Assembly: GCA_033064195.1 (NCBI GenBank)
Contig: JARBJD010000305.1
Location: 23,714-87,713, forward strand
Length of the DNA stretch: 64,000 nucleotides
Direction: 5' to 3'
Source: Blattamonas nauphoetae
Taxonomy: Eukaryota; Preaxostyla; Oxymonadida
In this document: positions 1 through 45,648 of the stretch, piece by piece
Position numbering within the stretch: the stretch's first letter is position 1
How the letters are laid out: every line of letters starts with the position of its first letter
Translations under genes and position numbers: made by a program
The notes under the pieces: generated by a model
Told to the model about the DNA's origin: nothing
The model's input: only the letters and a program-made list of their open reading frames with translations
Database searches by the model: none

Positions 1-1968
1 TCGTTGAAAGCGACAGGTCGATCGAATTCAGTTCAAGTTGGATCGGTTGTTATTCAGATGCCTGTGGAGCCAGTTCGTTTGACTCAGATCGAAAAGACTG
101 TCGAGACCGAGACATCACTGAAACTGTTGTTGACAGGATCAGGATTTGTTTCGAAAGAAACATACACAGTGGAAGTGTCTGGAGTTGCGACAGAAGATAG
201 ATCGTCGAATGCTCACACACGAACGTTCACAGTTGTTGCCTCTGCCACAACATCAGCTTCGTCGTCCACACTTGTTCTCTCCATCTCTGATCCAACATCT
301 CTGCAGTTTGGGCAAACATACACCGTGACGAAGATTGACAATGGGACAAACCCTGGAATTGTTGTTGGGACTCTCTCTTTCTCGACCCCTGCACTTCCTG
401 CTCCAACCCCTCTCTTCACATCAGCCGTCTGTTCTTTGGATGCGAGCCACACGAAAGTGATCGTTGATTTTAGAGGAACAGACTTTGAAGCCGGACAATA
501 CAAAGTGACATTCCAAGATGACTCGTTTCTGGATGTAGAATTCACCACAGATTCTGATGGAAAATCGACAGGAACGATGGATTTGGGAGTGATTGGATCA
601 AATGCTGGATGGATTGAAGGAACAACATGGATTGTGAGTAAAGTGAAGAGTGTGTCAAATCCGACACTTTCGATCGACATTGTGCATCCTGTGTCGTTCA
701 CGATTCCGACGGTGGCTCGACTGACTGGGATTGAAGTGAGTGAACTGGATGGGTCAACGAAAGGGAAAGTGAGGCTGTCGTTTTCGAGTGTGGAGTTGGA
801 GAAAGGAGTGGAATACACGCTGACACTGAATGGACAAGACTCAGATCAAGAGGAGCTGACTCGGAAAATGACAACATCAGTATCTGGAGATCTTGGAGTG
901 AAGGAAGAAGTGCTGTATCCATTTGAGACCGACGTAGGCAAACGAAAACAACAGATGAAATTTGGAGTGTTGTACAAGGTGACATCGTTGAAAGCGACAG
1001 GTCGATCGAATTCAGTTCAAGTTGGATCGGTTGTTATTCAGATGCCTGTGGAGCCAGTTCGTTTGACTCAGATCGAAAAGACTGTCGAGACCGAGACATC
1101 ACTGAAACTGTTGTTGACAGGATCAGGATTTGTTTCGAAAGAAACATACACAGTGGAAGTGTCTGGAGTTGCGACAGAAGATAGATCGTCGAATGCTCAC
1201 ACACGAACGTTCACAGTTGTTGCCTCTGCCACAACATCAGCTTCGTCGTCCACACTTGTTCTCTCCATCTCTGATCCAACATCTCTGCAGTTTGGGCAAA
1301 CATACACCGTGACGAAGATTGACAATGGGACAAACCCTGGAATTGTTGTTGGGACTCTCTCTTTCTCGACCCCTGCACTTCCTGCTCCAACCCCTCTCTT
1401 CACATCAGCCGTCTGTTCTTTGGATGCGAGCCACACGAAAGTGATCGTTGATTTTAGAGGAACAGACTTTGAAGCCGGACAATACAAAGTGACATTCCAA
1501 GATGACTCGTTTCTGGATGTAGAATTCACCACAGATTCTGATGGAAAATCGACAGGAACGATGGATTTGGGAGTGATTGGATCAAATGCTGGATGGATTG
1601 AAGGAACAACATGGATTGTGAGTAAAGTGAAGAGTGTGTCAAATCCGACACTTTCGATCGACATTGTGCATCCTGTGTCGTTCACGATTCCGACGGTGGC
1701 TCGACTGACTGGGATTGAAGTGAGTGAACTGGATGGGTCAACGAAAGGGAAAGTGAGGCTGTCGTTTTCGAGTGTGGAGTTGGAGAAAGGAGTGGAATAC
1801 ACGCTGACACTGAATGGACAAGACTCAGATCAAGAGGAGCTGACTCGGAAAATGACAACATCAGTATCTGGAGATCTTGGAGTGAAGGAAGAAGTGCTGT
1901 ATCCATTTGAGACCGACGTAGGCAAACGAAAACAACAGATGAAATTTGGAGTGTTGTACAAGGTGACA
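1..1968 (+). repeat. Two tandem 984-bp coding repeats, third copy diverging
   Basis: The block starting TCGTTGAAAGCGACAGG recurs at 1, 985 and 1969, a period of 984 bp (328 codons). Copies 1 and 2 read as identical throughout, including silent sites. Copy 3 matches only up to about 2153 and then diverges. Each block encodes about three Ig-like domains. Identity at silent sites points to very recent duplication or conversion; a mis-assembly near the window edge is the alternative. Confidence 0.9.
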
Positions 1969-4839
1969 TCGTTGAAAGCGACAGGTCGATCGAATTCAGT
2001 TCAAGTTGGATCGGTTGTTATTCAGATGCCTGTGGAGCCAGTTCGTTTGACTCAGATCGAAAAGACTGTCGAGACCGAGACATCACTGAAACTGTTGTTG
2101 ACAGGATCAGGATTTGTTTCGAAAGAAACATACACAGTGGAAGTGTCTGGAGTTTTGACGGGAAGTGAATCGTCGAATGTTCACACTCGGACTTTCACAG
2201 TTGTTGCCTCTGATGTGACATCTGCGTCATCGTCGACCCTCGTTCTCTCAAGCTCTGATCCAACATCTCTGAAATTTGGTCAAACATACTCAGTGAAGAA
2301 GATTGACAATGGGACAGAGTCTGGAATTGTTATTGAGACTCCCTCGTTCTCGACCTCTGACCTTTCTGTTAATCCGCCATCCACTGCTCGCTTAACTTTT
2401 GCCTCAGTCGAGATGAACTCCCAAGGCATCTTGTTGTCGATCGTTCTCAATGGCGAGCATCTTCCCTCTGACTCAATATTCCACTTGACACTCAACAAAA
2501 CAATCACAATCCCAGTTTCGTTCAGCTCGAGCACGAAAGGAAAGAGCGAGGTTGTGATGTTGGGGTTGGATGGAGGCCTCGATTTTGGTAAAACATATTC
2601 GATCACAGATCTGTCAAATGGAGGACTGAAGATCATTGCAGATGACATCCAAATCACAACACCTCCGAAACCATCGGAACTGACACTCTGTGTGTGCTCC
2701 GACGATTCTGGTGATTCATGGATGATTCGGAGTGGGGCAGATGTCGCGACGTGTCTCCGAATCGAACGAGCGTGGAACTTAGCTGAACGACTCTCGATTC
2801 ACAACAATATGATGCGAATTGTGAAACCCGCGTCGCTCTCCTCACCGATGCTCGTGTCGTCTCTTCCATTCAAACTGACATCAGGAAACATGGATCAATC
2901 GCTCCTCTCTCTTTCCCAACCATCGTCGATGACCAATTCGGATGGTTCGCTGCTCTCGATCACGAATGGTGAATGTGGATTGACACTCCTCACCATCACC
3001 ACTTCCTCCTCGTCGTCGTTCGTCTTCATCTCTGCTCAATCCTCCACAATCACCATCCAATTGTGTTCGATCGAAGGAACATCCAACCCAGAATCGAACT
3101 CAGAAGGATCGATTTGTGGATGGAAGACAGGATTCCTTCAATTTATTGAATCGAAAGCGAATCTGTCAGCAGTGACTCTGAAGGGACTTGGGTCTGGTGG
3201 GATTGTTCAGAAAGGAGGAGAAATGACAATTTCTACTGGGATCTTCTCTGACAACGGACAAACGAACTTATCGTTCCCATTGGCGAGACAGAACATCCAC
3301 TGCGAAGGAGAAGGAAAACTGATGATCAACAGTCTTGCACAAGGGGATGGATCGAAGAACACTCCATCAGCTTGGATTGATGCCGACGAGTGCTCAATCA
3401 GTGGAGACCAAGACATTGTCTCGTCTCCTCTCTTCGTTCCCACTCTCGACTCTGACGCTTCCTCCACGAACCTCGACAAGAAGACAAACACGATGCACTT
3501 CACTGTGAAAGGAGAGATACTTGTGCCGTGTGGTCTGGATGTGGAAGTGTTTGAGTGGGATTCTTCGAAGAGTGTGGAGGGTGGATCCGCTCTTCTCTCT
3601 CTCCACTCGCTGGCAACGACGAAATGGACCTCGACTGAGATTGTTGGACAAGTGGATCTGAAAACATCACTCTCGTCTCTCAACTCTTCTCTCGAATGGC
3701 GTGCCAGACTGGTGTTTGGAGACAATCGAACGACTTCGAATTCGTTCCTGTTCGCTTCAGCTTCATCGACAGGAAAAGGGAACATGTCGCAAGGAGGGGT
3801 TACCTCGAAGATGTTGTGGATCATTCCTGTCGTTGTCTGTGCCCTTCTGGCTCTAATTTTGTTGATTGTTCTGATCATCTTCGTCACTCGTCGAAACAAG
3901 AAGAAGCAGAACCAACAATCGCTCCTGATGAACGAGGAGAGATCAGCGATGGAGATGGGAGAAGTAATTCTGAAAGAAGAAGACGACGATCCCGACTCAA
4001 CACTGAACCGCATTCTGAACAAAGAAGGGTCAATTCTCCATGTCAGCAAGCCTGTCTCATCCCTGACAGACAACGAGAACAGAACATTCTCAAACGACAC
4101 TTTCAATCCTCTCGAAACTGTTGTTCGAGACATCCCGGAATCGATGCAACGTGAAGCCATTCAATGTGTGCATCCTTTTGATACAAAAGTTGTGTCGTGT
4201 GAAGACAGTCTGTATTGTCGTCTGCATGGTCGAGAGAACGAGAGGAAGGGGATCTCTTGGAAGAGAGTGGCGAGCTCGGTTGCAAATGGTCTAGTCCAAC
4301 TTCATCTCCGGAATCCCACTCATCATGCACTCTCCGCACTCAATCCACACCGAATTGTGTTTGACAACGAGACAATCAGCATCGTTCTCAACCATCCCAC
4401 GCCAACAGATCAACTTTCCAACAACCGCAATCGTCAGCCTCACTCGCTCCATCCATCGCTCCAACAGAAGTCTGGTCAGAACGAGGGAGAGCGATGGGAA
4501 GCACCTGAAGTGAAAAGAGACGAACAGCAGCCAAAAAACGAGTGTGACCAGGCCAAGGCATCTGTGTTCAGTCTTGGTCTGGTCATGTTTGAGATGGTGA
4601 CGATGACCGTGCCGTTTGGTGAAGTGGATGGCGTGAATGCTCATCGTCAGATTGTGTCTGGTTCTCTTCCCGACGTCTCGAAGATCGAAGACGACTCCGC
4701 TCGCGACCTCATCTCTTCCTGTCTCGCCCACAACCCGAAAGAAAGGCCAACACTCTCCTCACTCTCCGACTCGCTCAACAAACTCGCCCAAACCGACCCG
4801 AGCACAGCTGCTCTTCCTTCGCACAATGTCGTCCAGTGA
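1..4839 (+). CDS. Large surface receptor with Ig-like repeats, one TM segment and a cytoplasmic pseudokinase (5' end outside window)
   Basis: The frame is already open at base 1, so the start and signal peptide lie upstream; 1612 codons are visible and the gene ends in TGA. Codons 1 to about 890 are Ser/Thr-rich beta-sandwich (IPT/Ig-like) repeats, including two copies of a 328-residue block. About 920-1200 looks like a short beta-helix section containing GSICGWKTGF and SARQNIHCEGEG-type strings shared with the other receptors here. Residues about 1271-1296 (from MLWIIPVVV) form one membrane segment followed by RRNKKK, giving an outside-in topology. About 1395-1600 is a kinase C-lobe: RWEAPEV (APE), VFSLGLVMFEM (F helix) and KERPTL are present. 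The HRD loop and DFG are absent, so it should be a pseudokinase. Exact ligand and role are unknown. Confidence 0.85.
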   Translation, partial: SLKATGRSNSVQVGSVVIQMPVEPVRLTQIEKTVETETSLKLLLTGSGFVSKETYTVEVSGVATEDRSSNAHTRTFTVVASATTSASSSTLVLSISDPTSLQFGQTYTVTKIDNGTNPGIVVGTLSFSTPALPAPTPLFTSAVCSLDASHTKVIVDFRGTDFEAGQYKVTFQDDSFLDVEFTTDSDGKSTGTMDLGVIGSNAGWIEGTTWIVSKVKSVSNPTLSIDIVHPVSFTIPTVARLTGIEVSELDGSTKGKVRLSFSSVELEKGVEYTLTLNGQDSDQEELTRKMTTSVSGDLGVKEEVLYPFETDVGKRKQQMKFGVLYKVTSLKATGRSNSVQVGSVVIQMPVEPVRLTQIEKTVETETSLKLLLTGSGFVSKETYTVEVSGVATEDRSSNAHTRTFTVVASATTSASSSTLVLSISDPTSLQFGQTYTVTKIDNGTNPGIVVGTLSFSTPALPAPTPLFTSAVCSLDASHTKVIVDFRGTDFEAGQYKVTFQDDSFLDVEFTTDSDGKSTGTMDLGVIGSNAGWIEGTTWIVSKVKSVSNPTLSIDIVHPVSFTIPTVARLTGIEVSELDGSTKGKVRLSFSSVELEKGVEYTLTLNGQDSDQEELTRKMTTSVSGDLGVKEEVLYPFETDVGKRKQQMKFGVLYKVTSLKATGRSNSVQVGSVVIQMPVEPVRLTQIEKTVETETSLKLLLTGSGFVSKETYTVEVSGVLTGSESSNVHTRTFTVVASDVTSASSSTLVLSSSDPTSLKFGQTYSVKKIDNGTESGIVIETPSFSTSDLSVNPPSTARLTFASVEMNSQGILLSIVLNGEHLPSDSIFHLTLNKTITIPVSFSSSTKGKSEVVMLGLDGGLDFGKTYSITDLSNGGLKIIADDIQITTPPKPSELTLCVCSDDSGDSWMIRSGADVATCLRIERAWNLAERLSIHNNMMRIVKPASLSSPMLVSSLPFKLTSGNMDQSLLSLSQPSSMTNSDGSLLSITNGECGLTLLTITTSSSSSFVFISAQSSTITIQLCSIEGTSNPESNSEGSICGWKTGFLQFIESKANLSAVTLKGLGSGGIVQKGGEMTISTGIFSDNGQTNLSFPLARQNIHCEGEGKLMINSLAQGDGSKNTPSAWIDADECSISGDQDIVSSPLFVPTLDSDASSTNLDKKTNTMHFTVKGEILVPCGLDVEVFEWDSSKSVEGGSALLSLHSLATTKWTSTEIVGQVDLKTSLSSLNSSLEWRARLVFGDNRTTSNSFLFASASSTGKGNMSQGGVTSKMLWIIPVVVCALLALILLIVLIIFVTRRNKKKQNQQSLLMNEERSAMEMGEVILKEEDDDPDSTLNRILNKEGSILHVSKPVSSLTDNENRTFSNDTFNPLETVVRDIPESMQREAIQCVHPFDTKVVSCEDSLYCRLHGRENERKGISWKRVASSVANGLVQLHLRNPTHHALSALNPHRIVFDNETISIVLNHPTPTDQLSNNRNRQPHSLHPSLQQKSGQNEGERWEAPEVKRDEQQPKNECDQAKASVFSLGLVMFEMVTMTVPFGEVDGVNAHRQIVSGSLPDVSKIEDDSARDLISSCLAHNPKERPTLSSLSDSLNKLAQTDPSTAALPSHNVVQ

Positions 4840-9381: not shown

Positions 9382-10760
9382 TCATGTTCCGGAACCCAAC
9401 CATTGTCTGACAGTAACCTTCTGTAGTTGTTCCTCATTGTAGTCCTCGCCTTTTTCATCTTGTTCTATCTGTTGACTAATACTAACTCTTGTTAATGCTA
9501 GCAATGTTGTCTCACTGAGATTGAACCGTCGATTTCCAACGAAACGTCGAAGTGCAGAGATTTCTCTCTCACAGCTTGCTTCTGTCGGACTAGTGCAGAA
9601 AAGATTGCAGACAAGATTGGAGTACAAACCAATCTGCGTTTCTTCATCCACCATTGATCTCCAGAAAGGATATAATCCATCGTGACGCAGCACATCCCCT
9701 CCAAAAGAGTTTGTCGACGATGACCAATAGTTGAAGACACGAACAATGGAGTTTATACTCGTTGCATCCAGCTGTGGATAGACAGCTTCGAGCAGATTGC
9801 ACATTGCGATTGGAAGTATTGTTTTCCAATCAATCTCATTGAGTAAATGCCATTTGTCTTCGTGATGGAATGACCTGAAAAGAGGAAGAGCAATATCTCC
9901 TCTGGCAGAGCTCAGAACAGAAATTTCATCATCATTCCCTACTGCTTCAATTCCAGCTAGAATCTCATCCCTTCGTGATTGATTAAGCGCTCCAATTGAC
10001 AATGATGATACTGGCGGAGCGTCCTCATACGGAGTTGCGACTGGTTCACTAGTCATCTCACCATCGTCAATATCACTCAGCTCGTCATCGACGATGCTAT
10101 CTAACAACTGATCAAATGTCTCATGCGACTTTCGATGATGGCGATGAGTGGAGATTTGTGTGACAAGTGCAAGAGGTGTTGGTATTACATGACTCTCATG
10201 GGAAAGACGGGAGGAGACGTTGAGTGTCTGAGTCGATTCAGCGATATAGTCGCCAGTGTTAACATCACGTGGGATAATAGTTGTCATTCGCCTTGGAGTC
10301 GATTTTGCTTCTGGTTCCATCCTTTCATAAATACAAAATGTGTTGTTCACAAACGCTTTTCGGCCTTCAAGTGTGTGAATATAGGCAAGTGCCGCAATAG
10401 TTCCGGCTTCTGTGTTGAAAGTGTAACTATAAAGATTCTCCATCATAGACAGAATGACAGGTTTCCAGACTGTTGTCGATACTTGCACTGACAAGAAGAG
10501 TTGGTGATAGTGTTCAAACAGCTGGATCAGGACTGGGAAAACACTCACGAGCGATGTTGAATCACTTTCGAAAAATGAAATGGCTCGAAAGATGGGAATG
10601 ACCAAGTTGTACATATGTACGACATCTGCAAACGAAAGGCTCTCGCGTTGAAATGGAGGGAGTTGATTGAAAAGTCCCAATAATTTTGAAAAGAGCCAAA
10701 ACACTATGGATGGTTTCACTTTTTTTATTTTTCTCCAAATTCTTAAAATCACTCAAATAT
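9382..10760 (-). pseudogene. hAT transposase, C-terminal part
   Basis: About 456 open codons end in TGA at 9382. The final 60 residues carry the hAT C-terminal dimerisation signature: SPTEASCEREISALRRFVGN, then a short Arg-Phe stretch and SETTLLALTRV. The ER in that signature is a conserved element of hAT catalytic cores. The first residues (LLGLFNQLPP...FADVVHMYN) fit the helical region after the TRW motif. An acidic linker (SIVDDELSDIDDGE) lies in the middle. No ATG-initiated start is needed because this is the continuation of the gene starting at 21845. Near 10690 two frames both look coding, which indicates an intron or a frameshift. It is non-functional because elements A and B lie upstream in the same gene. 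Confidence 0.8.
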
Positions 10761-11133
10761 GATGGAAAAGGGGTTTGTTTCGAAATTGAGCTTCGATCGT
10801 GACGAGAAACGACACTTTTTTGAAACGCCAATTGAACACATTTATTGTTTCAAAAACAGATGAGAGAAGATCATGAGGTGAGACAATGTGAAAAAAGAAG
10901 GTTCTACAATGGAGAGTACGGATAAGATGTATTGTGAAGAAATAGAGGCAAAATACTCAATAGTCTCGAAAATGCTCTATTGCACTTGAATTATCAGTTG
11001 AAATTAGATTTCTGCATGAACCCAGGAGTACAAGTATTTTTTCTTGAATTGGACACATGTTTGCACCCATCTGGCAAGATCATCATCGATCGTGTCCTGA
11101 ACACTCCTTTCCTTTGTCTATCTGAAATTATGA
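10761..11133 (-). pseudogene. hAT transposase, eroded or intron-containing stretch before element A
   Basis: On the minus strand a short open stretch follows TTTCAGATAG next to element A and reads KERSVQDTIDDDLARWVQ, ending in TAA near 11010. It looks like hAT coding sequence with an upstream splice acceptor. The following 250 bp carry stops in every frame. TGA at 11131-11133 is the left copy of the element A target duplication. Confidence 0.4.
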
Positions 11134-11212
11134 TAGTGCCCTCAAAAACCCGCTTTTATCCATAAACCCGCGCAAAATCCAAAATGTTGATCATCATCAT
11201 GAATTAATTCCT
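11134..11212 (+). repeat. Element A left TIR
   Basis: TAGTGCCCTCAAAAACCCGC, then CATAAACCCGCGCAAAATCC and GAATTAATTCC. It is nearly identical to 16374-16450 and is inverted relative to 15785-15865. Confidence 0.88.
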
Positions 11213-11247
11213 TCCATCTCATATTTTCACTTTTTAGACCTAGTTTC

Positions 11248-11550
11248 TTAAAATTGAATAAAAGAGAGGTTGATCAAGATCAAAAAGTGGGTCAGATTCG
11301 TGTGAAACACTTTACCGGATCTATATATCGTCGTTTGGATGACTGGTTCTGATTGTGAGACCGAACGAAGTGAAACAAAGCCCTGAATAGCCATCTCCAA
11401 CACTGGCCATCTTGTCAAAACAGGATTCACAATCTTCGGAAAGTCTTGATCACGCTTCTGCAACGTCCACTCAAACCTCGAAAAAGGAGCAGCAATTTCA
11501 GCATCAGTGTTGAGCACATCTTCCCTCTCGATCTCGTCATCGACATTCAA
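11248..11550 (-). pseudogene. Possible hAT-like TRW fragment inside element A
   Basis: The minus frame contains RFEWTLQKRDQDFPKIVNPV followed by LTRWPVLEMAIQGF. A TRW motif after a short linker is typical of hAT transposases. It is not the same sequence as the TRW segment of the surrounding hAT (near 16330), so it would be a captured piece or a remnant of another hAT. The evidence is one motif only; it could be a shadow of the plus-strand gene starting nearby. Confidence 0.3.
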
Positions 11551-13914
11551 GAGCTACAAGCTGAGCGAGTCGAGTGAACTTAGAGGTGCGATCCATTTCT
11601 TCATCGAAACAGACAAAGCTGACTTCCTCCTCTCAAATCTCCTATTCACATCCAACGAAGCCACCAAAGCGGAAGATGTCTTCATCTCCACTCCCGACCT
11701 GTCGCTGGACAAGCTCGTTTTGACATCAGCCAAAATAAGTATCGAGTGGGAGGACAACATTGCTGACAATAGTCGCTTCCGATGCGAGTCAAGAGAAGGA
11801 CACTTCACTCCCACAGAGCTCAGCAGTCATCCAAATCGACACAGAATATTCGCTGACATGTTCCGGATGGGTCAACTTCACAAGAAAGGATTTCACCTTC
11901 ACTCTGAACGTGGCCTCACATTCAAGTCGCACACAAGTGGAACTCGAATCAGAGCGAATGATCTATCACTCACCACGGATGTCTTCGCTATCAACTCAGC
12001 CTAAATCGCCATCGGATCGGTAACGCTGTCTGGCATCGAATTCACAGGCACTCCCACAACCGCCTTCATTTCTCTCCCCTCAATGTATCCATCGTTGAGA
12101 TTGAGTGTGGGATCAATCTCGTTAGATTCGTCGAATCCACTGCCACTTTCATCTCCTCCACTTACTCCTCAGCCAGCCTTGTCGACACTTCACTCGCCTC
12201 GCTCGTCCTCGCCGACACGACAGATGATGTCTCGTCGCTGACTAGCTTCTTTCCGAGGCTCTCTTCTCGGTGAAAGCCAACACACTCTCTGAAGTTTTGT
12301 CGGATGTGAGTGGAATGACGTGTCCACTCGCCTCTGTTACTGGAGGTTCTCTCGCCCTGTCGAAAGTGAAAATCGATGGAATAGCTCATCATTCGCCAAA
12401 AGTGTGATTGTACAGACAGGCGGAAAAGTTCAGTTGGCAGACTCTCACTTCGCCAACATCTCCACACACAGAGCTGGAATCAACACGAAAACTGAGCTCG
12501 TTGATCCCCATCCGAGACCCGCTCATGAGCATGTCGATTGAGAGCATCCAAGTCGTCAGTCTCATCCTTCAAAGAAGCGAGGGCCTACTGCACCATCGGA
12601 GTCCAATCGATGACGATTTTGGACGTCCGCCCTCTCCCAGGCGACAGCCATTCGCTGTCAGGCACCCAGTCTATTTCATCACGTTCGACAGACTCCACGA
12701 CCCCTCGTTCAAGCTGCAGCCTCTCCCTCTCTCCGTCCAAATCCTCATCGAGAAGAGCCTGGCCATCAACGTCGATGTTCTGATGGACTCTCCTCAAATC
12801 CAAGTCAATATTCTTTTCGTGTTTGATGTTGTTCACACTGCTCTCGCTGTTGTCGACCCGCTTCTCCAGGCAATCACAAAGCTGACGTCCATGCTCACCA
12901 ACTACACCGAGTTCGTAACCAACCCAACCACTCATGAGAACGCTACTGCCACCGGAATGCCCAAACCCTGCGTCATTCAGTTAGACGAGGACGAGATCTT
13001 CGAAGGCGAAAGTGTCCGTGTCGAAAGACAGACTGTCGAAATTGTCCCACCGCCAAGTTCGATTGACACAGAAACAATCGCCGACGTCGCGAAGCAGATC
13101 GTCTCACAGTTCAACGCCCCAGCTCGCATCTCTCTCGCTGTCAAAGACATCACAGTTCATGTGTTTGAGAACGCACATATCAACAGGTCGTATGCTCTGT
13201 CGATCTCAACATCTCTCGGAGCTGATATTGTCCTCCAACCGCCGATGGTTGTGAATCACGAGAAAGAGAAGACAGCAGAGCATCTCGCCTTCCTCGCTGG
13301 ATTCAGCCAGCTCTTCCCTCAGTTCGACCTCCTCTACAAGACCGGCCATGGAATCAAAGGTGTCCAAATCACTCGATTCCGAGAAGTGAAGGAGGACGTT
13401 GCCGGAGCTCTAATCGTCTCGACCGCATCGTCCTCGTTTGTTCGGAATTCGAACACAGCGTATCTTCTGATTGCAGCCGGAAAACTGGTTGTCTCCCAAA
13501 GCACATTCACAAGTTCAGCATCCCTTCCCTATCCTCTCGTCTTTGCAAAAACATCAGGCGCTCTCGAAATTGATGACTTCAACGTGCCAAACTTGAATGA
13601 TGCGTTGATCAGAGGACAGACGAGCACAACTATGAATGTGGCCAACTCGAAGTTCGAATCCATCACTCGCGCGACAACAGAAGGAGAGATAGAGAACGGG
13701 ACTATGATCTCGGCAGTTCTGAAAGATGTCTCGTCATTCGAACTTGACACCCTCACATTCGACACATGAGGCGCAGCTGTCGTCCTTACCATGGAAGGGT
13801 CTCATCACTCGCTGGATTACTTCATCAACAACGTGACATTCACAGTAACCACTCCGTCTCAAAATGGACAGATCTACAGCAGGCTCTCGCGGACGAGACC
13901 CACGAGATCTTCGT
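11507..13914 (+). pseudogene. Decayed beta-helix-like surface protein gene in element A
   Basis: Plus-strand pieces in shifting frames read like the host receptors' beta-helix sections. Examples are ELRGAIHFFIETDK and LLSNLLFTSNEA near 11570-11660, VQTGGKVQLADSHFANIS near 12410-12470, and a long clean piece from about 12900 to 13769 (for example AAGKLVVSQSTFTSSASLPY). The frame moves several times before 12500. A TGA at 13767-13769 is followed in frame by GAAVVLTMEGSHHS up to another TGA near 13914. It cannot make a full protein. Similarity to the receptors is by style (Ser/Thr-rich short strands) rather than by an aligned segment. Confidence 0.5.
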
Positions 13915-15078
13915 GACGTACTCTTCGAAGTGGAATCTTGTCACCTCTCCACGCTCTTATCTCGTCCCACCCGAAAGACTGGAGATGTTTGTGTCGTCGA
14001 TTGGGCGAGCGAGCGACACTGGGGACAGAACACATTCATTCTCATCAATCTCCACGACATGTTGTCTCTGAGCAATAACTCTCACCCAAATTCCCCCTTC
14101 TTGTTCTCGCTAGGATTTAGCTTCTCGTAATGGATTGCTGTTGACGATCCTCGCTTCTGTTCTATCTGACAAAACACGTGAGCCCAGTTGGAGTTGATGA
14201 GAGCGGGTTTGACGTTGCGAATCGTGGATATCAGTCAGTATGGCGTCAATCACTGCTGATGACTCTTGATCGCCTCTCAACAGCACAGTCATCCACAGAT
14301 GTGGACGAACACCATCGATACAACTTGACATTGGAGAAGATACTCACTTCGAACTCCGGACAGACAACGTGAATCTGGATTTGTCATCGCTGATCGTCAC
14401 TTTTCCACCCCAACTGTCATCACCGTGTGTGTTCCTCTCTCGATGACGAACATGAATGTCTCCTCTGCGTTTCTTTTGGGATTTGCTCTGATCAAGTCGT
14501 GGAGTGATGTTGTTATGGATGGATGCCGTTTCTAATCAATCTCTCGATCGACTGGACTGTTCGGTGTGGTTAAAGCGAACATCTCCCTCTCCACTGTCTT
14601 CAGGATCCTACACACGACGTTCGAGCAAGTCAAAACGACTCGACGACAAGCAAGATTATGTTGAAAGGTCTGAATACAATGGCCAACAACGTTTCATCGT
14701 AGGATGAAGACGAACTGTTCTCTCTTATCGAAATCCTGCTCCCTCCTGTCGTGTCTTCCAACATGTTTGTTGGAGGACGAGAAGTCGATGATCGAGCGTC
14801 TGCAGAGACGAATCCACTCCGTGTCAAACCATCTCGATCGGATTCTCATTGATCGCACAAAGTGGATTCGGAGGATGTGTTTGGGTGGGGGTGAATCGTT
14901 GCTGATCTCCACTAATATGAAAAGAACTCGACTCCTGGTTGAGAACGACTTGGAGACAGATGCAAGTTTCATTCACTTTCTTCAGCACTACTACCACCAT
15001 CTTTCATCCACTACTGTATCCACTCTTCCCATGGGTGTGTTCTGTCTGAGGACTCTCTCTTCTCAGAATCAAGCCTGA
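13915..15078 (+). pseudogene. Further broken coding sequence in element A, unrecognised
   Basis: Short coding-like pieces occur in different frames, such as NMNVSSAFLLGFALIKSW near 14450-14500 and DEKSMIERLQRRIHSVSNHL near 14775. The latter belongs to a 124-codon frame ending at 15078. No family was recognised. Stops and frame changes every 100-300 bp argue for decay. Confidence 0.35.
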
Positions 15079-15221
15079 CAAGCACGAAGCAAGGAGAGAA
15101 ACACGAGGAGGGAAGTGTGAGAACGTGGGAGTTTACAAGCGAGGGGAGAGAGAAAACACGTGGCACAGGTCAGAAGCAAGGAAATGGAGTTCGCTTAACG
15201 TGAAGACGTGAACGTCACAGT

Positions 15222-15623
15222 GTGTCGCAACGTCTGTTCCTCCTCTCACTCGTTCTCTCAATTTTTCAAGTACTCTTTCTTCTTCTCCGTCCCCCTTTCT
15301 CATCTCCTTCTTTTCATTCCTCTCTCTTCTATCTCAGAACACTTTCACTTCGGCTGCCGAACTTGGAGGAGCATAGCCGCAGTTTGGACACCTCGCTGCC
15401 AGCGCTGGCATCGTCACTCTGCTCACACACCCTTCAAAGTCTGACAAAGACCAATATCGACAGAATCATTTATCCAATTCATACCATTGACCTCTTCATC
15501 TCTGGAAACATCGACAAAACTAATGTGGTGGAGCCAGAAGCGGAGGGGAACATCGATCTTGTGTGGAACATGGAGGCGCCAGAGATCCTTCAGAAACACC
15601 AATATCTGAAAACCACACATTGA
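15222..15623 (+). pseudogene. 3' end of the element A cargo gene
   Basis: The last part of this frame reads GNIDLVWNMEAPEILQKHQY before a TGA at 15621-15623. Element B has a recognisable counterpart before its right end (near 20490-20562) with a TAA inside. MEAPEIL resembles the kinase APE motif of the receptors (RWEAPEV), so the cargo may be a receptor gene cut within its pseudokinase domain. That reading rests on one motif. Confidence 0.35.
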
Positions 15624-15784
15624 ATCTTTCTTTTCATCATTGTTTCATCATTTCAAACACAATTACCATCAATATTACACACTTTTGAAGAATTCAATTG
15701 AGATCAAACCAGAAATAAAAAGTTCGTTTGAATTCACTTGGTAACGAAGTGTTTATGATTAAAAAGGAGTGAAATTCGAGATCA

Positions 15785-15865
15785 TCGGAATTAATTCATC
15801 ATGATTTTTGATTAAATGGATTTTGCGCGGGTTTATGTATTTTGCGCGGGTTTCTGAGGGCACTA
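15785..15865 (-). repeat. Element A right TIR
   Basis: Read inward on the minus strand: TAGTGCCCTCAGAAACCCGC, then two copies of AAACCCGCGCAAAAT and GAATTAATTCC. It matches 20720-20800 closely. Confidence 0.88.
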
Positions 15866-15868
15866 TGA

Positions 15869-16370
15869 GAGATAATTGAGAACAAACAGGTTTTATATGT
15901 CTGTTTGACACTGGTGAAGAGACATTGGGACATCATTATCTTAATCTCCAAGAGTAACCGTCATGGAAAAAGAGAATCCGCTTTCAGGTGCTACGAGTTT
16001 CAAAGAAAGTGAAAAGAGCACACCCGATCTTCACACATGTGACTTGATGTACATCGATCTGAGTGGAACGCAGTTTATCAAAGGTGGAGCAGTGAGGTCA
16101 CAATGAAGGTTGGAGAGTCAGTGCTTGAAAAGAGGATGTGTAGAAACGAAGTTTTGAGAGAAGATATCCGTGGAGATTGAGGACTTTAATCTGTTCCTGG
16201 AACAAGAATAGACAGAATTTGATAGAAAGACCAGTGAAACGGATGGATTCTTTCAAAATTATTGGGACAAAAGGACTTTTTTCTTGACAATCCAATGAAG
16301 AAGTGGTGTAAGAGACGCCCATCGAGTTTCAACGAATTGTGGGGCGCGGTGGTTAAAATGGTTGCGTAGA
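15869..16370 (-). pseudogene. hAT transposase, middle fragment between elements A and B
   Basis: On the minus strand, directly after the element B target site, the sequence reads NLRNHFNHRAPQFVETRWAS, then LTPLLHWIVKK and a TAA. TRW is the conserved central motif of hAT transposases. The frame joins the N-terminal piece exactly if B and one TTA copy are removed (CAC ACT AAT CTA). Further on, after TTGTTCCAG, an open stretch EQIKVLNLHGYLLSKLRF follows, suggesting an intron between them. The rest up to element A is unresolved. Confidence 0.7.
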
Positions 16371-16373
16371 TTA

Positions 16374-16450
16374 TAGTGCCCTCAAAAACCCGCTTTTATC
16401 CATAAACCCGCGCAAAATCCAAAATAGTGATCATCATTATGAATTAATTC
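16374..16450 (+). repeat. Element B left TIR
   Basis: Near-identical to 11134-11212: TAGTGCCCTCAAAAACCCGC, CATAAACCCGCGCAAAATCC and GAATTAATTCC. Similarity to element A continues to about 16520. Confidence 0.88.
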
Positions 16451-16847
16451 CTTCCATCTCATATTGTCACTTTTTAGAACTAGTTACTCAAAATTGATTA
16501 AAAGGGAGTCGGATCAAAATCAAAATGTGGGTCAATTTTGTTCAGAACACAGGAGGAATGAGAAGCTGAACCGCGCAGCCAGCTTGACATCTTCCTCCAG
16601 ATTGTCATCTTCGATCTCAATCAGTTGCAATCGATAATGTGGTCGCTGCCACCTCTCTTTGGATATCTCTTCACACAATCAAAAGACCACACTAATCTTC
16701 AGGATTCTCGACTCAACGAAGTTCCACAAGACGCACAACCAATGAATCGATCCCTCCATCCCCCTCACGACACAGAATACTTATATGTGGCCGACATCTC
16801 CAAATTTCGGTGAGGGGAATCGATGATTCATCCATCCGCTTTTCTTC

Positions 16848-17891
16848 ATGCTCAATCACCTCATCCGGACTCTTATCTCTGTTCAGAGTTGGTATTTCGA
16901 TGGAGTGCTAGCCGAATCAACGAACCACCATTATTCACTCCAGGATTATCCACGTCACCAAATCATCCCCCACCCACCTCTCGTTGACCTATTTCATCCA
17001 CCAACTGGATCATACTCTCGTATCATGTCTGAATCTCCAAGTTCTCAGCAAGGCCAAAACGGTGGCATCCCTGTTCATGGAATCGACTCAAAAGTCTTCG
17101 AATGCGGAACTACCACACTCTTCTCGTTTGCTCTTACAGAAACAACGCCATCCCAACATCGCCTGTTTGGGAGTGAGGTGATCCAGCGAGTGGTTGGATG
17201 TTCAGTGTCACACTCCACCATGACAGTGATCACCAAAGGAACGAATTCAGAACCAACACTTCGCATCCCCTCGTCCGTCATCAACCCATCTGCTGATTCT
17301 ATCGTGGTGGTTGTTGTTGAAGACGAGTTCTTCGAGATCAGCTCGGTCAACATCGAACTCAAACCGAACGACTCGTCATTCTCGCTTCTCTCTCCTTCCG
17401 ATTACACTATCGTCCTCCTCACAGTCTCACTGACCGGATCGAAACTTGCTTCGGAAAAGAACAACGACCCAACAACACAGGAGTTGTGTGAGTGGGAGAG
17501 TGGAATCATCAAACTTGTGAACAGCTCGACTTCGATCAAACTTTCCAGTTTTTTGCGTCTGTCGCAGGGAGCGATCAACATGAAAGGCAGCAGTCTGACG
17601 ATTCAGACATCCTCTTTCTCAGACAACACTCCTCGCTCGACACTCTTCCCCTCATTTCGCCGAAACATCCGCTGCTCCGATGAAGAAAGGCAACTGATGA
17701 GTTCGAAGACACTCGAGAAGGAGTACGGAGGAGATATGGAGAAGAGGAGGAAAGAACTCATGTCGCAGCATCACTCCACTGTCGCTGACGACTCGGAAAC
17801 TCCAACAGACGCGACCGATGAAGACGAGGTCTCCATCACAACTTTGAAGGCGAAGAAGAAGCGAAAGATGGAGACGAGTTGGATGGATTAA
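16848..17891 (+). pseudogene. Captured receptor-family gene fragment in element B
   Basis: The frame is open for 347 codons. Residues about 155-280 align with the second beta-helix region of the receptors. GIIKLVNSSTSIKLSSF, QGAINMKGSSLTIQTSSF and SFRRNIRCSDE correspond to GLIKLSNCTTTITSTQL, QGAINMKSGMVDIETSTF and SARQNIHCSDGG in the gene at 45649-52524. After that the frame runs into a Lys-rich tail (KAKKKRKMETSW) that has no match in the receptors and ends in TAA. No signal peptide, membrane segment or kinase is attached. It is best read as a captured and decaying host gene piece; a small independent gene is possible. Confidence 0.6.
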
Positions 17892-20570
17892 TTGTTCGAA
17901 TCCACCGACATCCAAATGTGGTCGACAGTTCCCAACAAGAAACCAGTCGAGCCACTCGCTGGGACTCCAACAAAACACACCCATTCGGGGAAGTCCTCGC
18001 CGCGGACCCAATCTTCACAATCAACTCGTAGCAGCAGCCCGACGAGAGAAGAACTGATGATTATGTTTCCTGAGAGAAGACTCCTGGACCATCCCATTGT
18101 CATCTCGTCGATGAGCCTCTGTCCTGCTCGCATCCGACTTGAGATTATTTCAGATTTTCCGAACTCAGTCTGGATCTCGCGAAGACACATCGTGGACAAC
18201 ATCGTCCGGACCACACTCACCCACCCTCACACCAACAATCACCTTCCGAAGAACCCGCATAGGTCGTCTGTGTCCGCCCGGCCTTCGAATATGACTGCAC
18301 ACTTATGGACATTCTCGTCGATAACCTTCAAGCAAAGCCAGCGCAGCCCACAGATTCGATTCAAATTCCTGTTTTCACCGCTCTCTGACCATCAACGACG
18401 GAGATTACATGTCGGTTGGTGAATGATTTGGTTCAGCAGAAGTGGGCGATGAACACACTTTACCAAAGTCTCTACCAACAACAGCAGGAAAGGATCATGA
18501 ACGTGATGGACGAACATCGTTCAAAATGGACCAAAAAAGTGACGGAAATCGAAAAGACTGAAGCAAGTCATCGTCCAACCGACGATCTCCTCGAAGGGAT
18601 CGACTGTGGAAGCTCCGAGCTGGTCCAATCTCTGAAGACAAACACCGCTTGGAAGAAAGATCTCGAATGGCTGTATCCTCAAATCACGTCCCCTCCGCCT
18701 CCGCAGCTTCTCTGGTGGCATGCCGAGAAAGTACGGGCTGTGTTCAAAACCCAATTGAAGAGTGTGGAGTCCTGCATTGCTGTCAAGACCTCACACTTCC
18801 AAGGAGCAAGAAAGGCCAGTCTTTTGATGATTTATGTTTGATAAACAAGACGATCAACGAAAGAGTCGATCGAATGTCGCAAGTTGAGCTTCTCCATCTA
18901 ATGAAAGAGCGAGCTACCACTTCTGTCACACCCTCACCGTTCCTTCCTTTCTTCGTCGGAATAAGCTTCCTGACACTGTCCGAACTCTCTCACAACCTTT
19001 GAACACGTTTGACTGCGAGCCAATTCACAAGCCTATCGATCAGGACACATTTTTCTCAAGAGTATCCCTTCTCCTCCCAACACAGACCACTCGACACTAC
19101 ACATCCGAAGCCCCAATGCCAAACCAAGAGAAGTCAGTCGTCGAGAACTGCTTTGATTCGCTGAAGATGGATAAGGACGGACAGAATGGGAAATCAATTC
19201 CATTCGCACTCACAACAGACACTACACGCTCGAATGGTGAGGTCGACTCACAAACGGCAAAGACCAGAAGACGAACACGACATTTCTGATCCAACAGAAC
19301 GCAACCACTCTGCTGGCTCAACTAGTGCGATGGGAGAGTTGAAGACAGTCATTGTGCCGAAGGAGCGACAACCGAAATGGAGCAGACTAACACAAAGATC
19401 GACATTTAACGAGAAGCAATCCACCCTGCTACCAACCGTGCTTCTCTCCTCTTCTTTGTCATGGTCGACCTGGCGTCTGTGGACTCGATGTTGGGAAAGC
19501 ACAAAATCCTGTTCTCACTCTAATTGGTGAAATTGTGATCGACACGGATCTGCAGCCGAAAAACCAAATCGAGAATCACGCTCGCGAAGTCCTCCACAGC
19601 CTCGCCAGCTCCAAATGAAAGGATGTCAAGGACTTCCTCTGGAAGCATCATCTCAAATTCCACAAGCTCAGTGTCACAGTGAACACGGGTGACGACAACG
19701 ACCCCAAAGCCAATGGCAGACAGACTGGTCGTTCCGTTACGGTTAGGAATATTTGGGATCCATCAATCGTCTTGCTGTGACCAGCCTGACCGATCACTGT
19801 ATTATCACACTCGCCACCAACGTGTACAAACCGGTTGTGGATGACCCCATGCCCTCACAGCCGAATTGCGCTCGCTGTTCAATCTGCGTCATTTCAGCAA
19901 CATCATCGGAGGTCTCTTCCGTGTAAACCAGAACCAGATCGACAAAGATGGTATGATCCGTTTGTCAGTACACGAGTGCACTCAGACATTCAGTGATCGA
20001 CTGGTGGACTCGTTTGGTCTGACAGAACGATGTGGAGAGAAAGAAGGATTTCTCAACACATTCCAGAAACGAGGAAATGAAATTTCATCGAAGGAACAAC
20101 TTTAACTGTCGCGGTTTGTAGCTTCACAAGATTCTCCTCTTTCTTCATCCACTCTTTCTCCTTCTGTCCTCTGCATTTTCTGTCCTCTTCTATTGTTGAA
20201 CTTTCTCGTTCATTTCTCCTCCTTCGTATTCAGGCAGACAGCTTGCCTCTCTTCTACCTCCCCTCGCAGTCCATTTCGATGAACCCGACGTGAACCGTGA
20301 TAGCAGCTGAACGAAGCTGACAACGCCATCGCTTCGTCACTGGCATTGTTGCTCCATTTCGTTCAATTGGCCTCACTACTCGAAATACTCATCGACGCCG
20401 TCTGATTTAATTGGAGCAGCATTCGAAACATACGCCGAGAAGAATACTTCTACAAATGGGCCAAGCAGAGGTGTAGAGGTGGAAGAGAACGTCGATCTTG
20501 GACAGCACATAGAGGCGTAAGAGATCCTCAGGAATCGCCTCTATCTGAGTGCCATGCATTGAACATTCCT
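17892..20570 (+). pseudogene. Broken cargo coding sequence of element B, unrecognised
   Basis: Several plus-strand frames of 80-180 codons follow one another. The best is 18416-18841 (141 codons from ATG), a charged helical sequence with QQKWAMNTLYQSLYQQQQ and PPPPQLLWWHAEKV. Another is 19866-20105. None was recognised. Near 20490-20562 the sequence parallels the 3' end of the element A cargo (ENVDLGQHIEA, stop, EILRNRLYLSAMH), here with an internal TAA. Overall this looks like a once longer gene in decay. Confidence 0.4.
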
Positions 20571-20719
20571 TTTCACCATTGTTTATTCATTTCACACACC
20601 ATTTCAATTCAAATTACCATCTTTTGAAGAATTCAATAAAGATCAAACCAGAAATAAAAAGATTGAAGTCACTTGCGAACAAAGTGTTTGTGAGTTAAAA
20701 GGAGTGAAATTCGAGATCA

Positions 20720-20800
20720 CTGGAATTTTTTCATCATGATTTTTTGATAAATGGAATTTGCGCGGGTTTATGTATTTTGCGCGGGTTTCTGAGGGCACTA
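20720..20800 (-). repeat. Element B right TIR
   Basis: Read inward on the minus strand: TAGTGCCCTCAGAAACCCGC, then two copies of AAACCCGCGCAAA. It pairs with 16374-16450. Confidence 0.88.
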
Positions 20801-21845
20801 TTAGTGTGAGATGATCGGCACACTGTTCTCACCTTTTCGAATGTAGAAACTGCAATTGTGTGCATCGCCACTGTCTTCGAAAGAGCGTTGTTCAGTCGAT
20901 GTGCCATGCATGGCCAGTGAAACGCGATTTGTTTCAGGCCATGCATGGTTGCCATTCTCACCCCAGAAACCAATCCCAGAAATCCATCGGTGACGCATGA
21001 GGTAACTGTTATTCCTTTTTCGAACATTTCCAGCAGAATTGCTCCAATCGAAGCGGCATAGATATCCGCGCTTTTCCCCTCGGCTCGAATTGTCCACAGG
21101 AGAGGCCGATTCATTTCTAGTGGATTAGTGGCGCAGTAAATGTTGTAACCAGTGTGGCCAAGTGTACCACCATCGACACTGAGACACACTCGAGTAGGAA
21201 GATGATTGAAAAACTCAGCGAGGAGTGAATCACTCTCCTGAATCATTTTTTTCGCAATTGTTTTTCGATTAGGCACGTCAAATAGATCTTTCGCTGGCTT
21301 TGTCGGGAATTGCTGGCTTTCGTGAATGAGTGTCTGAACAAAGGTTTTCATAGCTGGACTTGAAGCTTGGTTGAATGACAGTTTTGTTGAGGCTACCATC
21401 CGTAAAAATGCTTTCTCAATCTCTGTCTTCGATGAACTCACGGACTGAACTTCGCGCTGTCTTGAAAGAGTGATAGACTTCATTGGATGGTTTTGCATCA
21501 TCGATGGTATTCCACCACGGACAGGAAAACTACAGCTGTGCTTGTGAAACTTAGGCAACGAGTTTTCGAAGAGACAACCGCAGATTGTGGATCCATCAGA
21601 GTTGAGACAGATTAACTTTCGATGACTGGATCGATCTCCTCCTGATCTGCTACAACCGGTGTATCTTGCATATGGCCTTTTAGAAAGTGGAGTTTCTTCC
21701 TTTCCCCGCACAACTTCAGTGGCATATTTTCCGGGATGTTTTGGCAGTGGTACGATAGAAATTTCTAGAAAAAGAGCAATGAAGAATCAATAGCTGTCAT
21801 ACCTGAGCACCCAAAAATGGTGATACCCTTATTTTCCTCAGCCAT
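20801..21845 (-). pseudogene. hAT transposase, N-terminal part (two exons)
   Basis: Exon 1 runs from ATG at 21845 to 21803 (MAEENKGITIFGCS; an ATG three bases earlier is also possible). A 38-bp intron (21802-21765, GTATGA...TTTTTCTAG) follows, then exon 2 from 21764 to the element B insertion at 20801. The visible 335 residues contain a Cys/His cluster (CGCLFENSLPKFHKHSC) like a degenerate BED finger. They also contain two hAT catalytic-core segments with Asp (CLSVDGGTLGHTG and SCVTDGFLGL) and the HWPCMAHRLNNAL motif typical of hAT. The frame continues in the fragment at 15869-16370. As it stands the gene is interrupted and inactive. Confidence 0.85.
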
Positions 21846-29488: not shown

Positions 29489-32400
29489 ATGGGACTTCGA
29501 GTGAACTTGATCACATTCACAATGGTTCAATTCGGACTACTATTCATCATCTGTTCACTGAACTGTGACTGGGATGATTTTAGTGACACAAGATTGCAGC
29601 CGCTGTCACCAATCCTGACATCATTCTCAAACTCTGCTCAACATGGAACTGCAGAGCCAAGATCGTTGCTGCTCCCGAAAGGAAATTTCTTCATATCGAA
29701 TCATGTGGTGGAATCGAGTGATCTGACGATGACAGGAAATGACACAAGGATCAGATTTTGGAATGATATTGGTGGAATGAAAGAGACTCGCAAGTTGGAT
29801 GGGAATGTCGTCGGAATTGAGACGATGTTCGTGTTCAAGAACAGCTCAGTTTGTCTATCATCATTGGAGTTGGATTGTGGTGTTGACGGAGTTAGGGCAG
29901 CTCGTGTATTGGGGTCTTGTGTGGTTGTGTCATTGTGCTCGATTCGTTCGAACATGGAATGCTCGCCATTTGTGGTTTGTTGGATGGGAGAGACAGACTG
30001 GAGCTCGATCACAGTGACATCGAGTTCTCACGTGTCATCATGCTCTCCTTCTCTTCTTCCTCTGGTTGAGATTTGTGACGACTCGATTCGCTCTGGCAAG
30101 ACAGGAACTGCATCCCATGACCGATTGGACAGAAACGACCGAACTGACAGAACTGATGGATGGACACCGTCTGTCTCGATCACAGGCTCTTCGATTGAGT
30201 TTGGTGATGGTGATTTGATTTTGGGGACTGGTCCTCTGATTGGGTCACTGGACGGAATCGGAAATGAAGAAACGATGAAATCAGTGTGGACATCGTTGGT
30301 TGGTTGTGTTCTTGTGAACATGACATCTCGATGCTCATCGGAATTGAGTGAAGTTGGAAGTTGGTTTGGTCAGTCGATTGTTGGGAGTGTTGTGACATCG
30401 TGTTCGAACCATCTTTATGGAACATCGATTCGTTCGCTGAATGGTGGCGGGAGTCTTCTGAGTCTGAACTCCTCCTTCCTCTCCTGCCTCGTAGACGCCA
30501 CCAACAACAACATCGCCTACGCAGCCAGAACCGATCTCACCGCAGATCATTCTCCGGTCTCCTTCACCCAGTGCACATTCAGAAGATGCTCAAATACAGA
30601 CACTGGTGGAGGAGCGCTTTACTGTAACAAGAATATCAATATCCTCATTGAGTCTTGTTCGTTTGACACATGTACTGCACCTCAGCAGTGGGGTGGAGCA
30701 ATCTGGATCGAGTTTCCATCTGACTCCAACACTCTCACGCTCAAGTCATCCATCTTCACGTCTTGTTCATCACGATTCGATGGATCTCTGGCTATCAATA
30801 ACACAGGCACATTAACCATCTCAGAATGTGTCTTCATGGACTCAGAAGCGGAACAATATGGTGGAGCGATTGGTTTGAACAATTGAGATCCAGCGACAAA
30901 TGAAGGATCCATCTCAAATTGCCTCTTCCAGAACTGCAGACATACAAAGACAGACTACAACATGGGTGGAGGAGCAATGTTTTTCCAGAACAGTGCCTCG
31001 GTTCAATTCACCTCTCTCCTGTTCGCAGATTGTTCTTCAGCGATTGAACTAGGTCATGCCGTATACATATTTTACTATCCTGTTCCAACGCTTGACTCAA
31101 CAACCGTCTCGAACTGTGCATCTCATTCAGAATACTCTTCAAATCTTCTTTGGGTTAACTATACGTTAGCAGACTATAGTCTTCTCCTGAACCGATCTCC
31201 AACCCAACTCGCCATCACAGCGCTCACTGCAAATGTGAAAGGGACGACAGCTGACGTGGAAGTGACACTGGACAAGGAAGTGGATGGAACATTGTTGGTT
31301 GTTGTGTCGAATGTTGGGGGAGAGCGAGAGGAAGTGACAGATGGGATTCCAAACATTGGTCGTGTTTTGGAGTTCTCGATGTCGTCGTCGATTGGATCGT
31401 GTTCTGTGTCGATTGGTGAGACTGGTCTTCTTCAGAAACCTCTCTCCGATTACTCCATCGTTGATGCCTTTCATCCTGATCACATCGTTGTTTTTTCAGA
31501 CTTTCAAATCTTTGAGCCATCTGTCATCGCAACTCTGCTCTCAGCCTCGTGCTCATTGGATGACAGCCACACAGAAGCAACAATTAGTTTTGAAGGAAGC
31601 GACTTTGAAGTTGGACAATACAAAGTGACATTGCAAGATGACTCGTCACTGGATGTAGAATTCACCACAGATTCTGATGGAAAATCGACAGGAACGATGA
31701 ATTTGGGAGTGATTGGATCAAATGCTGGATGGATTGAAGGAACAACATGGATTGTGAGTAAAGTGGAGAGTGCGTCAACACCAGAACTGTCGATTGAAAT
31801 TGCACATCCTGTGTCGTTCACGATTCCGACGGTGGCTCGACTGACTGGGATTGAAGTGAGTGAACTGGATGCATCAACGAAAGGGAAAGTGACGCTGTCG
31901 TTTTTGAGTGTGGAGTTGGAGAAAGAGACGGAATACACGCTGACACTGGTTGGACAAGACTCAGACAAAAAGACGCTGACTCGGGAAGTGACAACAACAG
32001 TGTCTGGAAATCTTGGAGAGTTGTCTGAAGTCTTGTATCCATTTGAGACAGACCCAGCTGAACAGATGAAATTTGGAGTGTTGTACAAGGTGACATCGTT
32101 GAAAGCGACAGGTCGATCGAATTCAGTTCAATTTGGATCGGTTGAAGTCCAGATGCCTGTGGAGCCAGTTCGTTTGACAAAGATCGAAAAGACTGTCGAG
32201 ACCGAGACATCAATGAAACTATTGTTGACAGGGTCAGGATTTGTTGTCAAAGAAACATACACAGTGGAAGTGTCTGGAGTTTTGACTGGAAGTGGATCTT
32301 CGAATGTTCACACACGAACGTTCACAGTTGTTGCCTCTGATGCGAAATCTGCATCATCGTCGACCCTCGTTCTCTCCAGCTCTGATGCAACATCTCTGCA

Positions 32401-34902: not shown

Positions 34903-35641
34903 GTCGAGCAGAGTCGCAATCCGTCTTCGTTCTCCATCTTCACTGACCGAGCAAAATCACACGCACTTCACCAGATCAGCCGACCATCCAGCTTCTGATG
35001 CACTTCACGATTGAGTTGAGGCGTGTCGTGATCTGTCTTCGTTCTTCTTCCTTTCCTCACTTCATGTGCTTTCTTGCTCGTCCCTTCTTCATTCTCGTCT
35101 TCACACTTCGTTTCGTCTTCCTTCAATCCTCGTTTTGTGGAGTGTTTGGCCACTTCACTTCCTTCACTCCTCTTATTTTCCCCTCTTCACTTCAACAACT
35201 GAAACAATGTCAACTTCCTCACCGTTCGACTCAACTATTTCCAACTTTTCTATTTTGTGCCGTTTTTCAGATAAAGTGTTTTGTTCTGGCTGTCTTACAG
35301 CCCCTTCTATCTTGTGTCTCTCACTTCATCACGTCTCCACATTTCACCAGATCATATGTGACTCACTGAGATGGAAGAAAGTCCGAATTTCGTTGGATTC
35401 GGAGATGAAATGCAGGATTATCTCAGAAATTTTCATTCTGGTCCCCTTATCCTGTGTCTTTTTCTGACGACTCCATTGATAGATTGAAGAGGGGATGAGT
35501 AATGAAGGCACATCATCTCAGAAAGTTACAGATTCAATGAGTCAGGAGTTTCAGAAAAAACCTAATTTCTCATCCGCGGGGAACAGGATGTTTTTTTGAG
35601 CCTGGAATAATGGGCCACAATTCTCTTTGATCGCATTCATC
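34903..35641. other. Intergenic, duplicated 3' flank of the receptor genes
   Basis: The first roughly 270 bp are near-identical to 42020-42290 after the next receptor gene, so the duplication unit includes the 3' flank. No gene was seen. An ATG at 35610 corresponds to the upstream start of paralog 2 but runs into TGA because of one missing base. Confidence 0.6.
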
Positions 35642-45504: not shown

Positions 45505-45648
45505 CTGAGAGGCAAAGAGAGAAATGGGTAGAAACAATGTAAACAATCTTCAGTCCTCTTTCGCCAGACCTACGCTCCTGTATGTGTTCACCATTCGATG
45601 CAGACTGTTGGGATCCCATTAAATCCTTCCTTGATACAAAAGGTGTGG

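Follow-up and report, generated by a model that had tools for sequence, protein, structure and literature searches.

Elements A and B of the oxymonad Blattamonas nauphoetae are inserted TIR elements, and the reading we favour, at a probability of about 0.86, is that they are non-autonomous DNA transposons of one Pack-type family with captured host-gene interiors. In the window, by which we mean the whole 64,000-nucleotide stretch of contig JARBJD010000305.1 that was analysed, A occupies positions 11134–15865 and B positions 16374–20800, 508 bp apart. Both start with TAGTGCCCTC and finish with GAGGGCACTA, while the ends of the family as a whole can be written TAGTGCCC..GGGCACTA, with a target duplication of the form TNA. 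Flank comparison places TGA on either side of A (11131–11133 and 15866–15868) and TTA on either side of B (16371–16373 and 20801–20803), and re-reading the window bore out the first-pass annotation on the coordinates, the shared TIR ends and both duplications. Each element would be built from a shared left end of about 180 bp, in most cases a right-end block of about 250–330 bp, and a captured, deleted and chimeric host interior; the interior makes up 88–89% of A and of B. A transposase encoded elsewhere would recognise the ends and, acting in trans, insert the element with a 3-bp TNA duplication.

Target duplications and an empty site

The genome searched comprised 837 contigs and 88,311,006 bp. 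Genome-wide, the bare 10-bp TIR occurs at 72 places and its reversed control at 127, so this short motif is no evidence by itself. A 39-bp right-end pattern (at most three mismatches) was found at 34 places and a 29-bp left-end pattern at 51, with a count of zero for each control. Every one of the 18 inverted TIR pairs spaced at most 10 kb apart is flanked by an exact 3-bp TNA duplication (TTA 6, TCA 4, TGA 4, TAA 4); flanks are common to two pairs of these 18 elements, which therefore represent 16 independent sites. Among 11 further copies with both ends recognised, the flanking triplets are equal in five (L027, L028, L031, L032 and L047) and unequal in six (L029, L030, L033, L034, L035 and C209), giving a matching duplication in 23 of 29 elements overall. 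The duplication of L044, TCA, was matched by eye. Two of the copies with unequal triplets, L029 (C135:2574-8460) and L030 (C135:179131-185027), belong to F7; they lie some 171 kb from each other, oppositely oriented, and their triplets are swapped (TCA/TTA versus TTA/TCA), as expected of an inversion by recombination between the copies or of an assembly chimera; L034 has the same flanks as L029.

For A, an empty site is present in the genome: the left flank of L044, on contig C41, matches the joined flanks of A at 284 of 300 positions, gap-free and with a single TGA. The window, in turn, is uninterrupted at the position where the C41 element sits. In the paralogous sequence on C41, an F6 element sits about 118 bp away from the position of A's insertion. 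Insertion of B split a hAT-like frame, and joining the flanks gives a 365-aa reading across the site; the transposase remnant at 20804–21711 (minus strand) is thus B's insertion site and belongs to the host, not to the element. Remnants of a hAT-like transposase gene lie around both sites, at 9382–10752 and 20804–21711 (minus strand). The hAT label comes from reading by eye and from the neighbouring frame 9382–10752, whose Pfam match is weak (E 0.033).

Shared ends and variable interiors

Collecting the genomic copies, as the first-pass annotation had proposed, was done with TIR pairs and the longer end patterns and revealed an element family of multiple subfamilies. The 51 left ends were assigned to A (8), F2 (11), B (1), F3, the relatives of B (5), F7 (8), F8 (10), F9 (6), C209 (1) and C324, the F5 element (1); 35 of these copies were read, and the other 16 were placed by pattern variant and earlier matches only. 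F4 and F6, with two copies each, were found by A sequence and stand outside this count. Elements with both ends measure 3.9–8.3 kb, and the family has about ten interior arrangements.

Two parts recur. The left end, consisting of the TIR TAGTGCCCTC and subterminal sequence amounting to about 180 bp (11134–11312 in A; 16374–16568 in B by comparison with other copies; both on the forward strand, like all parts of A and B described here), is common to 10 of 11 representatives, the left end of F4 not having been located. A right-end block of about 250–330 bp is found in eight of 11 representatives, alongside unrelated cargoes; it lies at 15536–15865 in A (about 330 bp, finishing in GAGGGCACTA) and, by comparison of representatives, at 20475–20800 in B. 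F8 retains just the terminal portion of this block and F5 and F9 just the inner portion, their terminal right TIRs being unrecognised. The block holds the tail of an old reading frame (..NMEAPEIL.. in A) that is kept in several subfamilies. A and B had been annotated as apparently ending in the same cargo gene 3' end; the shared sequence is there but its attribution to a cargo does not hold, since a block that recurs with unrelated cargoes belongs to the element and not to a shared cargo.

Interiors are shared by A and F5, A and F4, F2 and F9, F7 and F8, and F4 and F7, whereas A and B, like A and F2, have only their ends in common. These patterns bear on the alternative that the elements are ordinary deletion derivatives of one autonomous element, with the 'cargo' being that element's own large gene. 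The retained reading-frame tail at the right end, the interior sequence common to some subfamilies and the many junctions that are deletions at microhomologies (see below) are all in keeping with such an origin. However, pairs such as A/B and A/F2 share ends alone, the interiors match different host open frames and no transposase family was found in the scanned ORFs; we regard this alternative as highly improbable. Under the favoured Pack-type reading, host-gene pieces would have entered ancestral elements; trimming of these pieces at short microhomologies, and their exchange from one element to another, would then have yielded the arrangements seen today.

At least two arrangements, A and F7, were amplified very recently. 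Seven A copies, at six independent sites, are 0–2 substitutions apart in approximately 4,725 bases, with an eighth copy 8–9 substitutions away, and the F7 copies differ by 0–5 substitutions in approximately 5,290 bases; this near-identity points to very recent movement of both. Small length differences among the A and F7 copies may be assembly errors. Elsewhere, L001 (C2:29374-30532) resembles positions 3245–4414 of A but lacks the right-end block that normally follows and stops directly at TAGTGCCCTC; it may be a relict or represent an older type of element. The F2 copies L020, L011, L021 and L025 carry extra insertions of about 0.8–2.2 kb, possibly nested mobile elements.

Host-gene cargo

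Donors of the interiors are long open frames elsewhere in the genome: 4444 aa on C31, 1587 aa on C468, 796 aa on C790, 3048 aa on C827 and 1248 aa on C284. A contains collinear pieces of the C468 beta-helix surface-receptor gene (80–83% DNA identity in the longer blocks), beginning with a fragment at 11454–11799 (83%) and continuing with more at 11917–12464 (80–95%). A stretch of this receptor sequence has been replaced by a piece of the unrelated C31 gene at 12445–13435 (92% and 96% DNA identity; 219/238 and 735/762 bases identical), from which 119 bp have been deleted internally at a TCATC microhomology. The receptor fragment resumes at 13417–14043 (80%), fused in frame to the C31 piece, and the resulting chimeric open frame of 453 aa (12408–13766) joins the two, its first part being out of frame relative to the donors. 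In B, a chimeric open frame of 354 aa (16827–17888) combines a receptor piece (residues 125–288, best match C790 at 84% aa) with part of the unnamed 3048-aa open frame on C827 (residues 284–354, 97% aa). The C827 gene fragment as a whole spans 17682–18962 (95–98% DNA identity) and lacks about 0.18 kb of internal gene sequence.

The first-pass annotation had noted a resemblance of B to the surface receptors and beta-helix-like sequence in A, and had taken loss of this similarity under profile search as a sign against its own reading. Both similarities are real and survive a phmmer search: A matches the receptor-type frame on C468 with E values of 4.6e-46 and 2e-49, and B matches the four receptor-type frames of the window with E values from 1.7e-16 to 2.5e-10, while a shuffled copy gave no match. 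The four frames lie at 4–4839, 30962–34246, 35627–42019 and 45598–52524, and kinase-domain matches are located near the ends of the first and third.

Other members of the family carry other cargo. F9, and F2 in decayed form, contain a TmcB-type TPR gene (Pfam E 8.7e-10) with open-frame relatives on C284, C115, C55 and C215 at 81–84% aa identity; F5 has a dynein heavy chain piece (E 1e-15) followed by receptor sequence, and F6 has receptor sequence at 71–78%. Altogether, receptor pieces are present in A, B, F3, F5 and F6, and parts of the C31 gene in five representatives (A, F4, F5, F7 and F8). Ten of the 11 representatives contain identified host-gene pieces, and a cargo-free member was not found among the 11, the cargo of the last, C209, being judged by eye. 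For the C31 gene stretch itself, neither Pfam nor PDB gave a match. In a part of an F4 element beyond that stretch, one Pfam hit scored 16.3 bits (E 0.0037), below the cut-off of 22.6; on this hit, together with sequence motifs, the gene is tentatively labelled VPS13-like.

In all six source genes with readable orientation (the receptor in A/F5/F6, C31, the receptor in B/F3, C827, the TmcB-type gene and dynein), the sense strand of the cargo runs left to right (p 0.03), which is suggestive only. The elements contain three chimeric open frames of 338–453 aa. We set aside the in-frame fusions as a sign of function, as one in three is expected by chance.

How the pieces were cut can be examined at 15 junctions that leave out a portion of the C31 gene or, in B, a portion of F3. 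Exact microhomology of at least 3 bp is present at 12 of them, short filler at two and neither at one; among 388 simulated random deletions run through the same pipeline, 16.8% had at least 3 bp (binomial p 1.3e-7). This pattern fits end-joining or template switching during gap repair. Several missing blocks measure 94–122 bp, which raised the possibility of retro-capture via spliced RNA, but the blocks sit in an uninterrupted donor frame without GT..AG borders, so internal deletion fits better. For Pack-CACTA elements, fusion of neighbouring insertions is proposed as a capture route (PMC8903248). Close neighbours occur here too, namely A and B and two elements 35 bp apart on C170. Both pairs consist of separate insertions and have the arrangement from which the fusion model starts.

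Direction of transfer was assessed for one donor gene by pN/pS at the 763 positions that the C31 gene has in common with A, F4 and F5. The three elements share 13 changes, of which 11 are synonymous and two non-synonymous (pN/pS 0.06, p 1e-5 versus neutral). Private changes number 3/11 (synonymous/non-synonymous) in A, 7/15 in F4 and 5/12 in F5, with pN/pS values of 1.16, 0.68 and 0.76, none of which is distinguishable from neutral given the small numbers. In F7 and F8, private changes gave 1.70 and 0.47 (p 0.09 for F8) and shared changes 0.20. Shared changes thus show purifying selection and private ones near-neutrality, which indicates that transfer ran from the host gene into the element and was probably followed by drift. 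The simplest reading of these counts would be that the donor gene is under purifying selection and that A, F4 and F5 derive from one captured copy or one donor allele. Taken over the whole divergence from the donor, shared and private together, F4 (0.45) and F7 (0.25) are well below 1, values as expected of a mixture, yet leaving room for some constraint. For this one donor and these few changes, the captured cargo is probably mostly neutral baggage.

The proposal that capture feeds a surface-antigen family, which the first-pass annotation had drawn from A and B, fares poorly in this light. It would have the elements return receptor fragments to genes and so diversify the surface-receptor family, and the receptor pieces in five subfamilies and the chimeric open frames speak for it. 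Receptor pieces are only one type of cargo, however, alongside pieces of the TmcB-type, dynein, tentatively VPS13-like and unnamed 3,048-aa genes; the post-capture changes of the one testable cargo are, in small numbers, not distinguishable from neutral; and no recent recipient host gene appears among the matches listed for A and B sequence (lists that scored 40 of 146, 40 of 175 and 115 of 1179 candidates). We consider a receptor-diversifying shuttle very unlikely.

Transposase partner and known systems

The 11 representatives contain 166 ORFs of at least 100 aa. Scanning the 149 longest (the 17 ORFs of 100–105 aa, and shorter ones, falling outside the scan) gave 11 Pfam families at E ≤ 0.01, among which there was no transposase family; weak matches included Sec62, Tim54, CDC45 and others. 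The first-pass annotation had reported no transposase in A or B, and no transposase family matched their ORFs; nor do all copies share one cargo encoding a transposition protein, the finding it had named as contradicting gene capture, as the cargoes differ and no such protein was recognised. Its suggestion of Pack-type capture has likewise gained ground, with donor genes, chimeric cargo and several subfamilies now found and no transposase family among them. A divergent, unrecognised transposase inside autonomous elements would be compatible with the many element ORFs that lack a Pfam match. The sequence common to unrelated subfamilies, however, amounts to about 180 bp on the left and at most about 330 bp on the right, which is too short for a transposase, and the interiors hold host-gene pieces in 10 of 11 representatives (C209 by eye), making this explanation, too, highly implausible. 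The 8.3-kb C209 element was rejected as a possible autonomous member: its ORFs are short, a few of them looking beta-helix-like by eye, none matched a transposase family, and its flanking triplets are unequal.

Pack-TYPE elements (Pack-MULE, Pack-CACTA, Pack-PIF and Pack-hAT) are described as a plant phenomenon (PMC8903248). The A/B family resembles that description: its members are non-autonomous TIR elements, each bearing fragments of host coding sequence from several donors, and their ends are shared while their interiors differ (PMC8903248). Three defining features are seen here: TIRs with target-site duplications (18 of 18 TIR pairs, five of 11 later copies and the empty site of A), non-autonomy (149 ORFs without a transposase family at E ≤ 0.01) and host-gene fragments for which a donor or relative lies at another place in the genome (10 of 11 representatives). 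The family differs from the plant elements in its oxymonad host, in a TAGTGCCC.. TIR and TNA duplication without an assigned transposase, in having no cargo-free representative among 11 (C209 by eye), in lengths of 3.9–8.3 kb with 88–89% interior in A and B and, suggestively, in the same cargo sense strand in six of six sources.

Outside plants, Turmoil-1 of C. elegans carries two transduplicated host coding fragments inside inverted repeats (PMC2572040). A and B are similar in carrying transduplicated host coding fragments in a transposon, but form a family of chimeric interiors where that source describes one element with two fragments. In fungi, transposon-linked duplication of host gene sequence has been described (PMC3538342, PMC6710886), to which the present family can be likened by description only: host sequence duplicated with a transposon outside plants. 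Among the papers listed from the literature searched, in which subscription journals are thinly covered, no oxymonad gene-capture element appeared and none dealt with the transposons of Blattamonas nauphoetae, and by title only the Monocercomonoides exilis assembly paper looked relevant to oxymonad transposable elements. In that assembly, unclassified repeats make up 35%, many overlapping tyrosine (receptor) kinase genes (PMC8767320).

Finding such a family in an anaerobic gut protist, recently active and with several of its donor genes preserved, indicates that capture of this kind is not confined to plants. Some of the unclassified repeats of M. exilis may likewise be mobile elements with receptor pieces and not an expanded gene family, which is testable, and gene predictions in such genomes may count chimeric element ORFs as false genes. 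A more far-reaching idea is that the ends (TAGTGCCC.., TNA) mark an undescribed transposase group, and that Pack-type elements are a main, ongoing source of mosaic gene fragments in this oxymonad, occasionally re-seeding its very large beta-helix receptor family and forming part of the large share of unclassified repeats reported for oxymonads; we offer this as speculation with the odds well against it.

Three transposon superfamilies invite comparison. CACTA/EnSpm elements make a 3-bp duplication and have TIRs starting 5'-CACTA, with CACTA/TAGTG as their tip letters. A and B share the 3-bp duplication and these letters at their tips, but in inverted order (start TAGTG, end CACTA), with a TNA target and no such transposase inside, and membership was rejected. 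The same holds for hAT, which makes an 8-bp target duplication where the A/B family has 3 bp only. PIF/Harbinger elements produce a 3-bp TNA or TWA duplication, and the TNA duplication of the A/B family makes this group the first guess for the partner; we would give a partner transposase of PIF/Harbinger type somewhat less than an even chance.

DDE_Tnp_4, the PIF/Harbinger-type transposase domain and the only family searched genome-wide, gave 62 matches, so that such transposases are abundant in the genome. Among the ends listed, with coordinates read against the left-end census, none of these matches lies inside an A/B-family element, and the search for an autonomous member with a transposase, another check proposed at the outset, gave no candidate within that listing. 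Those coming closest lie 1.7 kb beyond the F2 copy of C368 and, on C377, 6.7 kb away from an unread copy, measured to its left end. L057, a Harbinger family with located ends, has TIRs AGACCCAACCCG with an ATT repeat, unlike the A/B ends, and was rejected as the partner for its different TIRs. L058 is a further copy of the L057 family; no convincing TIRs were seen for L058 or L059 in the stretches examined. Several of the PIF/Harbinger-type transposases are 457-aa frames present in multiple copies.
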